IMG/VR virus record: IMGVR_UViG_3300030117_004197
Location: 1 to 23,330 of that record
Reading direction: 5' to 3' (one strand)
Origin: a virus
DNA length: 23,330 nucleotides
Made by a program: the position numbers and the translations under genes. The notes below the pieces were generated by a model. That model was given only the letters and a program-made list of their open reading frames with translations. It was not told the origin of the DNA and ran no database searches. Below, in pieces: positions 1,141-9,280 of the stretch (the stretch's first letter is position 1; each line of letters begins with the position of its first letter).

Positions 1141-1560
1141 AGTTACTAATATTATAAGATAGCATCATTTATCGACCAATAGATAAAGTGTCAGTCTATG
1201 GATCCGAAGCCTAGCTAAGGTGACACATAATATTAACATGGATTAGGCCAGTGTAAATTCAGCATCTATATGATGTGTAGCAACCTGGCCTTTTCCTCTC
1301 ACATGAGTGCCGAGCAATCACTATAAACTGTCTCTAAGCTGCTGGACATTCAGCGTAAAACTGTCCATTCACAACTACATTACCAAAGTTGTAATCAATT
1401 ATATTAACCTTTTATTAATTGGTTTATACTTTGTGTTCACGATTACCGTTTCTTTGGTAATGTAGTTCATTCTAACTCGTGTGGCAACTGTCGCAATAGC
1501 TACTGGGGGGTAATCTATATAAAGGGTGACAACCTTTCACGAGTACTAATATATTTAATT
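1141..1560. ncRNA. Gene-free stretch dense in inverted repeats; candidate structured RNA or origin-like element
   Basis: No coding frame of useful length is present and the region is GC-richer than its surroundings. Possible stems in order: 1168-1173/1182-1187; 1188-1193/1221-1226; 1245-1251/1285-1291 enclosing 1263-1266/1272-1275; 1343-1348/1362-1367; a perfect 16-bp stem 1373-1388/1452-1467 enclosing 1391-1396/1441-1446; and 1475-1481/1538-1544 enclosing 1521-1525/1533-1537. The density and order of stems, with the space otherwise unused in a compact genome, favour a structured RNA over random repeats. An origin or packaging signal is an alternative. Confidence 0.45.
1373..1467. repeat. 16-bp perfect inverted repeat with nested inner arms
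   Basis: AACTACATTACCAAAG (1373-1388) and CTTTGGTAATGTAGTT (1452-1467) are exact reverse complements. Inside, GTAATC (1391-1396) pairs with GATTAC (1441-1446), and CAATTA (1396-1401) with TAATTG (1416-1421). This is the strongest inverted repeat in the window and can form a long RNA hairpin or a DNA cruciform. Confidence 0.85.
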
Positions 1561-3182: not shown

Positions 3183-3803
3183 ATGAAAAATAATCTTAAT
3201 AGTGGCACAATAGAGGCCCTACAACCAGGACAGACATTACTAGTGTCTGCAAGAAAAGTATCTAACGGAGAAAAAGTTCAATTAGAATTTGCAGAACAAA
3301 TAGCATCTAAAGACAGACCAATCAATGCATTAACTATATTAAATGCAAGTGATAGTAGATTTAGCAGTGGTGCTAGACGTTCTTGGATAACTGCAGAACC
3401 GTCTGATGCTACTGAACAATTAGGAATTGACTTTTCTGCTGCCAATACAGCTTGGTATCAATCAGAGAAAGGCGAAGTGATGGATCTAAATATATTAAAT
3501 CCATCTATTGAACTAAATGGTAACAATATGTACTTTAGAGTTCAAGTTGTCGAATCTACTGAACCAACAGAATGGGAAGCTGATAATGTAGAGAAAGCTG
3601 CTAAAAGAGCAGGCAAGAATGGTGATTTTATAACACATAATGGTGATTATATATTCTCTAGAACTCAAGTTATTTTGCTACAAAAAGGCGGAGAAGTTAA
3701 ACACACTATGCTAGAATCTGATACTACTCGTACACAAGTAACTGCTAATCAAGGAGTTAAAGTTGCTGAATTACAGACAGAATTAGATGATATGGGCTTA
3801 TAA
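3183..3803 (+). CDS. Hypothetical protein with acidic C-terminal tail, 206 aa; possibly nucleic-acid binding
   Basis: This soluble, beta-rich protein has repeated short strands (QTLLVSARKVSNGEKVQLEFA; MYFRVQVVEST; DYIFSRTQVILLQKGGEV), an alanine/lysine segment around residue 138 (VEKAAKRAGKNGDF), and a polar C terminus ending ELQTELDDMGL. Beta-strand pairs plus an acidic, hydrophobic-tipped tail recall phage ssDNA-binding proteins, but no family signature is visible and a better SSB candidate exists at 10453-11226. It is the last gene before an intergenic promoter/terminator block. Its codon use is like the neighbours'. Treat the function as unknown. Confidence 0.6.
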   Translation: MKNNLNSGTIEALQPGQTLLVSARKVSNGEKVQLEFAEQIASKDRPINALTILNASDSRFSSGARRSWITAEPSDATEQLGIDFSAANTAWYQSEKGEVMDLNILNPSIELNGNNMYFRVQVVESTEPTEWEADNVEKAAKRAGKNGDFITHNGDYIFSRTQVILLQKGGEVKHTMLESDTTRTQVTANQGVKVAELQTELDDMGL

Positions 3804-7828: not shown

Positions 7829-8370
7829 CAATACAAATCGATTTGGCTTTATTAGAAGATGCGCATTTAACTCCTGATGATTTTGTCTATCTGTACATAT
7901 TACATAGAAAGGGATTTTCTTACTTAGAGAAAATCCCTTTACGTGTATCACCTAGATTAGAAGTAGATGGGTGGGTTGTACTAGATAAAGATGACGAAAC
8001 TAAACATGTTGTACAGCAAAAGTTTAGGGACTTATTTGTAACTGATTTTGATTCTATGTTTACTGAGCTTGTAGATGCATACCCATTTAAGGTAGAGTCT
8101 GCTAGGGGTGTTAGAGTTCTAAGAGCTCAGAACCCTAAAGCTGCAAGCAATAAGAAAGCAAGAAACAAATACAAAAAGATTGTTTCTGGTAAGCCACACA
8201 TGCATAAATTTATTATGCGGTGTTTAAAAACACAATTAGAAAGTGAGCAACATAATTTAGGTTATATGCAGAACTTTGAAACATGGATAAACAATTGTAC
8301 TTGGGAAAAGTATGAAGATATTAACATTAATGACACTAAAGATGACAGACGTATCACAAGGAAACTTTGA
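7825..8370 (+). CDS. Putative replisome organiser / helicase-loader-like protein, 181 aa
   Basis: There is no catalytic motif. The N-terminal half (TPDDFVYLYILHRKGFSYLEK; RLEVDGWVVLDKDD) looks like a winged-helix arrangement as in replisome-organiser proteins. The C-terminal half is basic and helical: an LRAQNPKAASNKKARNKYKK stretch, then HMHKFIMRCLKTQLESEQ, ending in LGYMQNFETWINNCTWEKYE. That last pattern (short helix, ETW(I/L)N, WE) is common at the C termini of phage DnaD-like or loader proteins. It lies directly between an SF2 helicase and the DnaB-like helicase, overlapping both, as expected for a loader. The call rests on context and pattern rather than a firm family match. Confidence 0.55.
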   Translation: MTIQIDLALLEDAHLTPDDFVYLYILHRKGFSYLEKIPLRVSPRLEVDGWVVLDKDDETKHVVQQKFRDLFVTDFDSMFTELVDAYPFKVESARGVRVLRAQNPKAASNKKARNKYKKIVSGKPHMHKFIMRCLKTQLESEQHNLGYMQNFETWINNCTWEKYEDININDTKDDRRITRKL

Positions 8371-9280
8371 TTTCTTAAGAGAGAGAGGTTTTCAACCTAT
8401 TAACAGTGCAGTAGATAAATCTATATCTATTGTAAAGTCAGCTATGCATGGGAACAGAGATGTGTATCCTACAAAATGGCCAAGACTTAATAAAAATTTA
8501 TTGGGTGGATTACAAAGAGGTAAGATGTATGTAATAGCTGGTAGACCAGGTGTTGGTAAATCTGCATTTAGTAACCAGCTAGTATTTGATGTACTAGATC
8601 AAAATCAAGGTAAAGAAATAATAACATTGTATTGGAGTTTCGAGATGCCTGGTTATCAGCAGATTATGCGTAGTGCATCAAAAGAAGTTAAGAAAGAGAT
8701 ATTAGAATTACTATCAGTTGAGGCAAGGCTTAATGAAGAAGACTTCAAAAGTTATGCCAAACGTGTTGATAAATTTAGAAAATATCCTATATATTTTAAC
8801 AGTATTCCTAGAACAATGGAATATATTAAACAAACAAATGAGAATGTATTTTTAAATAGGCCTAAAGCTACAGTTATAAATATATTTGATCACTCTAGAT
8901 TAATTAGAGGGTCTAGTGAGCACACAGAGCTACAGAAATTAAATGAAATTTCTAAGGGCTGTATGTGGATGCAAGCTAGAATGGATGTTATTAATGTATT
9001 ACTATCTCAGTTAAACAGAAACATTGAACAAGAACACAGAGCTAAAAACCAATATCAGCCTCTCTTGACAGATTTGTTTGGTGGTGATAGTATTGGTCAA
9101 GACGCACATGTAGTTATGATATTAAATAGACCTTATGATATATATGGGATTACTAAAACATATTGTGACGAAGATCCTGTAGGATTATTAGCATGTCATG
9201 TAGAAAAAAACCGTGATGGGTTATTAGGAATGATTCCCTATGAAGCGGAAATGTCAACATTTACAATAAAAGAAAGATAA
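8342..9280 (+). CDS. DnaB-like replicative helicase (RecA-fold domain only), 312 aa
   Basis: The replicative helicase motor unwinds DNA 5'-3' as a hexamer. Numbering from the ATG at 8342 (MTDVSQGNFDF): Walker A GRPGVGKS at about 67-74 after LGGLQRGKMYVIA; a Walker-B-like strand VINIFDHSRLI near 180; LSQLNR; the DnaB H4-type segment DLFGGDSIGQDAHVVMILNRP; and the arginine-finger stretch VEKNRDGLLG near the C terminus. The DnaB N-terminal primase-binding domain is missing, as in several phage helicases. Starts at 8312 and 8330 are possible, but 8342 gives the smaller overlap with the upstream gene. It probably works with the loader-like protein and the primase at 11525. Confidence 0.92.
   Translation: MTDVSQGNFDFLRERGFQPINSAVDKSISIVKSAMHGNRDVYPTKWPRLNKNLLGGLQRGKMYVIAGRPGVGKSAFSNQLVFDVLDQNQGKEIITLYWSFEMPGYQQIMRSASKEVKKEILELLSVEARLNEEDFKSYAKRVDKFRKYPIYFNSIPRTMEYIKQTNENVFLNRPKATVINIFDHSRLIRGSSEHTELQKLNEISKGCMWMQARMDVINVLLSQLNRNIEQEHRAKNQYQPLLTDLFGGDSIGQDAHVVMILNRPYDIYGITKTYCDEDPVGLLACHVEKNRDGLLGMIPYEAEMSTFTIKER

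Follow-up and report, generated by a model that had tools for sequence, protein, structure and literature searches.

The post-transcriptional shaping of phage messages is known mostly from T4 and T7. In T7 early mRNA, the RNase III sites are irregular hairpins that lie in the gaps between early genes and at which the polycistronic message is processed. Among described phage pseudoknots, that of the gene 32 leader in T4, T2 and RB69 is an autoregulatory operator located 67 nt upstream of one gene (PMC3014915). The ToxI pseudoknot has a conserved G5 and A6, a U12-U22 pair and a U:U:G triplet (PMC8860590), and the phage hammerhead and HDV-like theta ribozymes (PMC10879173) are small RNAs found near tRNAs or between genes. 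Here, we analysed a window of 23,330 bases, an IMG/VR fragment of a marine crAss-like virus, and focused on its gene-free block at positions 1141-1560. Modularity, covariation, coding-strand bias and the intergenic positions of its modules in many phages show that about six small, separately evolving RNA modules with a function at the RNA level stand in tandem in this block. Two are assigned, in the case of a pseudoknot tentatively, to RNA families that Rfam 15 lacks and that recur between genes of many phages. Like T7 RNase III sites, the array places irregular hairpins between early genes of a polycistronic phage message, but its modules have sequence-conserved loops, one element is a pseudoknot, and cleavage by RNase III is putative here. 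As in the gene 32 leader, a small H-type pseudoknot is carried by a phage mRNA; however, the new family is found behind the stop codons of many different genes and ahead of tRNAs. The phage ribozymes (PMC10879173) are likewise small and lie close to tRNAs or between genes, and the homologous block of another locus (L002) contains a hammerhead, whereas the window block itself holds no known ribozyme in Rfam 15. No description of these motifs appeared in open-licence papers on structured RNAs of crAss-like phages, on pseudoknots of phages or on resistance to 3' exonucleases.

The crAss-like assignment of the window relies on its own PolA, DnaB-like helicase and Sak4-like protein, together with the terminase and portal of its close relative L019 (IMG/VR contig 3300030372_002470), whose terminase is 38-41% identical to those of the best-matching gut crAss-like phages. 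At the left end of the window, positions 1-361 form a conserved gap that separates the leftward late genes from the rightward early genes and is also present in L001 and other relatives. The block is flanked by two small early genes of the plus strand, one encoding a 76-aa membrane-like protein (842-1072, with a homologue in L019) and the other a 51-aa protein (1569-1724, conserved in L019 and L001). Identity between window and L019 reaches 97-99% across most downstream genes and 79-95% within pieces of the block, and no recognisable copy of the block was found in L001, a relative with 75% PolA identity. Gene-free gaps of 250-940 nt occur in about 55 of about 90 PolA-related loci. Many lie between the divergent gap and polA, and stems are visibly abundant in much of the gap sequence; the block is thus one case of a habit of the family, with content that changes fast. 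A blastn search of the region against named phages matched nothing, and exact scans with the 17-mers CAACTACATTACCAAAG and GTCGCAATAGCTACTGG returned, outside the close relative, nothing but chance matches, of which many fall in coding sequence.

Several other features were observed around the block. Upstream, positions 695-841 contain a terminator-like hairpin followed by an inverted element (GCGAGCGAGCAC...GTGTGTGAGCGAGC) and a conserved TATAATATATAACACTTA sequence, an arrangement that is present ahead of blocks in relatives as well and is possibly an early promoter. Downstream, a 37-bp direct repeat with 89% identity (1693-1729 and 1875-1911) covers the 3' ends of two adjacent small ORFs. 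The coding sequence of the first early gene (362-694 in the window, 8188-8511 in L019) folds as a row of perfect local hairpins, with minimum free energy z-scores of -7.2 and -7.5, respectively, against synonymous-codon shuffles. The first genes of several relatives (e.g. L039 6658-6945 and L041 6523-6810; further coordinates are L046 6656-6943 and L059 7532-7783) also score between -4 and -7, some of these genes being without evident homology. This suggests strong selection on mRNA structure in the leading early transcript.

Every stem listed in the initial annotation of the block was recovered at its position, and the block was rightly described as non-coding: no conserved reading frame runs through it, its modules are permuted in L019, and the sole ORF of at least 50 aa is a 52-aa GTG ORF. 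It is GC-richer than the window as claimed, by a small difference (0.36 versus 0.32). The whole block folds better than its dinucleotide shuffles (z -3.07, about -3.1 on either strand) but, with GC allowed for, is unexceptional among the 420-nt windows of its own genome: its residual z is -0.5, and 7 of 110 windows equal or surpass it in folding. Folding energy alone is therefore weak proof, and the evidence had to come from relatives; function is shown by covariation. Compensatory changes were indeed found in homologues. The proposed ordered series of stems exists, although its order is not conserved, as L019 carries the counterpart of 1306-1367 upstream of that of 1238-1303, followed by 1369-1560. 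The inventory was also incomplete: stem 1343/1362 belongs to a pseudoknot as its stem 2, the accompanying stem 1 (1338-1341/1351-1354) having been overlooked together with a tandem sister copy at 1306-1333. As in the initial annotation, no known class was recognised, Rfam 15 giving no match at gathering thresholds over the window and, at E≤5, only two chance-level matches over positions 700-1700.

From its 5' end, the array (all features on the plus strand) begins with M1, two adjacent hairpins (1168-1173/1182-1187 and 1188-1193/1221-1226, spanning 1168-1226) recognised from the sequence, with a fold z of -1.5; searched with nhmmer, 2.8 Mb of related loci gave no match beyond the window. The M2 hairpin (1240-1291; fold z -4.6) has an outer GGA/TCC, stems P1 (1245-1251/1285-1291) and P2 (1262-1266/1272-1276) and a conserved internal loop. 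M5 (1475-1544) combines P1 (1475-1481/1538-1544), an inner hairpin (AAAGG 1521-1525/CCTTT 1533-1537) and a conserved GTCGCAAT strand, with a fold z of only -1.6. Both M2 and M5 recur with rebuilt stems in the distant relative L045. For M2, GGCCAG/CTGGCC in the window is compensated to GGTCAG/CTGACC in L019, and L045 (6878-6929) places the same loop inside an entirely different but complementary stem (E 1.1e-9 with a model that included the L045 copy itself). For M5, a model of window and L019 detects, adjacent to the M2 copy, L045 6938-7014 (E 7.5e-5), where P1 changes from ACTCGTG/CACGAGT to ACTCCTG/CAGGAGT and the inner hairpin from AAAGG/CCTTT to AAAGA/TCTTT. With three sequences each, M2 and M5 are supported rather than proven as RNA elements. 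Three hairpin modules with a common ACAGCAATT motif and different but complementary stems lie in L009 (6600-6870) and are possibly another RNA family. Look-alikes of a "mini-tRNA" with acceptor stem and T-arm were seen within gene-free blocks of L007 (~7895-7945) and L009 (~8465-8540), and L005 (6953-7072) contains a tRNA-Leu-like sequence with an abnormal middle part that is called neither by ARAGORN nor by Rfam.

M4 (1373-1467; fold z -6.1) is built on a 16-bp P1 (1373-1388/1452-1467) that encloses P2 (GTAATC 1391-1396/GATTAC 1441-1446) and a conserved TATACTTTGTG core. Its family, traced through similarity to L095, consists of hairpins of 66-100 nt with a conserved core and the layout P1-UUAGUAAUU-P3-ACUUUGU-AUUACAAUU-P1', which the window copy shares with different junction nucleotides. 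Scanning viral contigs with part of the core yielded 52 stretches, a count that, like those for the pseudoknot, includes related contigs. The P1 arms were no part of the search pattern; in 42 distinct copies they are complementary over 3-15 nt, with sequences that differ. The covariation score is 0.270 against 0.156 in shuffles, and six of seven pairs of helix 1 are changed on both sides among 29 sequences. A covariance model trained on 25 other phage copies, with window and L019 excluded, recovers window 1383-1457 (E 0.0015) and L019 9302-9381 (E 0.0004) and nothing more in either, and in 1.17 Mb of relatives it detects 13 copies, every one on the strand of the genes. M4 commonly lies 4-8 nt past a stop codon, with the next ATG about 30 nt further on. 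Against Rfam 15, the copy in L052 gave only sub-threshold miRNA-precursor matches (best mir-1175, 24 bits for a gathering threshold of 51), taken as generic hairpin similarity.

The second family is a 25-27-nt H-type pseudoknot with a 4-bp S1 and a short L1, for which relatives give the consensus S1-CU-RRRCA-W-S1'-AYAAAC-UGYYY (L1 CU or CC, L2 of 1 nt, five standard pairs in S2). The window holds two tandem diverged units about 32 nt apart (1306-1366). In unit 1 (1306-1333), S1 is AGTG 1306-1309/CACT 1319-1322 and S2, GAGCA 1312-1316/TGTCT 1329-1333, is imperfect; a model built without window and L019 detects it at E 0.087 and its L019 counterpart (9144-9170) at E 8e-6. Unit 2 (1338-1366), located by a descriptor, has both stems (GCTG 1338-1341/CAGC 1351-1354 and GGACA 1344-1348/TGTCC 1362-1366) with L3 GTAAAAC; its spacing departs from the consensus, so the same model gives no score below E 5. 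Both units being diverged, their assignment to the family would rest on the L019 copy and on the paired stems. A sequence-only scan of viral contigs returned at least 120 stretches of the motif, related contigs included, and the same scan of 257 Gb of prokaryote genomes only 20 (19 distinct, one being a CRISPR spacer). The search pattern contained nothing of S1 except one C, and S1 with a 1-nt L2 nevertheless forms in 85 of 86 distinct viral matches, among the matches listed. Over 44 distinct 27-mers, the covariation score is 0.307 versus 0.076 in shuffles, and S1 covaries strongly (for example, GC 18, CG 12, UA 10 and AU 2). For S2, 16 family members, mostly picked without requiring complementarity at variable positions, show AU, GC or GU at two of five pairs plus one further double change at another pair, with a mismatch in two members, window unit 1 and its L019 counterpart. 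In the isolates Roseobacter phage CRP-13 and Lentibacter phage ICBM2, the pseudoknot occupies the same position between the ribonucleotide reductase and glutaredoxin genes with a compensated difference (AAGCA/TGCTT versus GAGCA/TGCTC). The sequence-specific motif is enriched (147 versus 1 in reversed sequence), whereas a generic pseudoknot descriptor over gene-free gaps gave no excess (165 versus 151 in shuffles). Cellulophaga phage phi14:2 does not have the motif within its first 50 kb, and no Rfam family covers the L166 copy at E≤10. A match in a Saprospirales MAG (L293, 4586-4609) falls in a CRISPR-like array, one spacer being a copy of the phage pseudoknot.

A long ORF ends within 60 nt upstream of the pseudoknot in 83 of 127 distinct copies, and in 54 of these 83 its stop codon lies 4-8 nt before S1. 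Nine of the 127 sit 3-10 nt upstream of a same-strand tRNA gene (eight at 3-6 nt), where our rough estimate, based on 127 copies and 66 tRNAs in 1.13 Mb with some contigs related, is well below one. The main coding strand carries 111 of 123, and up to five copies occur on one locus, most being single elsewhere. The units of the window and of L019 sit within the array, outside the typical position 4-8 nt after a stop codon or ahead of a tRNA. A role in stop-codon readthrough or frameshifting is not supported, as extensions were short and next-ORF frames mixed in 41 cases. In the homologous gene-free block of L002, a pseudoknot lies alongside a type I hammerhead ribozyme (3704-3755; E 0.0004, below the gathering threshold). 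A sequence nearly identical to this hammerhead is present at ~7270-7325 of L074.

These data bear on several explanations of the block. The initial annotation had put forward a possible new phage structured RNA, with GOLLD and ROOL as precedents, and, as an equal alternative, an origin of replication or packaging signal. Covarying stems and a location on the coding strand support a structured phage RNA. GOLLD and ROOL (PMC12286853) are likewise structured RNAs of bacteria or phages, and the length of the block, its number of stems and its fold z would suit one ornate RNA of that kind. Yet those have a single conserved large architecture, whereas the block consists of separate, reorderable modules of 27-100 nt; because these are reordered in L019 and solitary in other loci, the block is not one large RNA, and in the lack of any Rfam match we consider this hypothesis extremely improbable. 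A DNA-level element is hardly more credible. The GC skew, which climbs from ~1500 onward, and the 16-bp inverted repeat speak for it, but the skew tracks gene orientation, the two widespread modules are multi-copy and on the strand of their neighbour genes at many genomic positions, and L001 lacks a recognisable copy of the block; the supposedly equal alternative is not supported.

A further explanation, unlikely but worth weighing, is that the modules are operators or aptamers for a phage protein, or ligand switches, which would control translation of the next gene. Indeed, M4, M2 and M5 hold internal loops that are conserved while their stems vary freely, the next start codon commonly follows after 10-40 nt, and gp32 binding to the T4 gene 32 leader pseudoknot offers a precedent (PMC3014915). 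However, the neighbouring genes are highly varied, a locus may hold five pseudoknots, some precede untranslated tRNA genes, and the 1-nt L2 leaves scant space for a ligand pocket. It is improbable that the pseudoknots are RNA decoys against host defence, e.g. mimics of pseudoknot antitoxins as in type III toxin-antitoxin systems. They resemble ToxI and CptI (PMC8860590, PMC4627078) in H-type topology, size and tandem arrangement in the window, and the blocks change quickly between related phages; but ToxI membership is not supported, as the ToxI G5, A6 and U-U/U:U:G triplet are missing (L1 is CU or CC and S2 has five standard pairs), the new pseudoknot is usually single and after stop codons, and bacterial and archaeal genomes gave just 19 distinct matches. 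A Pfam scan of ten window proteins found no toxin. We likewise assign a low probability to M2, M4 and/or M5 being unrecognised self-cleaving ribozymes that would cut the polycistronic transcript: their closed stem with an invariant core, their intercistronic site and the L002 hammerhead would agree with this purely by analogy, while no catalytic signature was recognised in any of them.

Processing of the early transcript between cistrons, or stabilisation of its 3' ends, is the most likely role, the mechanism being inferred from position. More precisely, we consider it an evenly balanced proposition that the block forms intercistronic RNA elements of the early rightward transcript that mark and protect message ends. 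Each module folds independently in the RNA and is gained, lost or reordered as a unit. The RNA would be cut by RNase P at the tRNA, or elsewhere by other nucleases or ribozymes, after which the pseudoknot would remain as the 3' terminus of the upstream mRNA, where it would block 3'-to-5' exonucleases. Located just past a stop codon and just before an RNase P cut, it occupies the spot expected of a protector of the upstream message. M4, found in the same stop-to-start gap, may act similarly or be a processing site. In this phage, several such elements are stacked between two early genes, where they may act on the upstream gene or give rise to a stable non-coding RNA. The hammerhead of L002 indicates that such arrays already include RNA processing and, together with the placement of M4, fits a general role in which polycistronic early RNA is cut and protected. 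Against stabilisation, the window pseudoknots are diverged and not close behind a stop codon, M1 has no homologue, and a position after stop codons equally fits translational or transcriptional roles.

More broadly, and tentatively, many unrelated marine phages may share a dedicated intercistronic module set that cuts and stabilises polycistronic mRNA, which crAss-like phages would gather in exchangeable arrays behind the early promoter. This set would include new hairpin families, which may be ribozymes or structures that block nucleases, and the 27-nt pseudoknot, which is not yet catalogued. Present in many phage contigs, absent from Rfam and in a fixed position relative to stop codons and the 5' ends of tRNAs, the pseudoknot offers a concrete candidate, easy to test, for a general device of mRNA stabilisation or processing. 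Its very small size and the covariation behind both stems should also make it of use to RNA biology.
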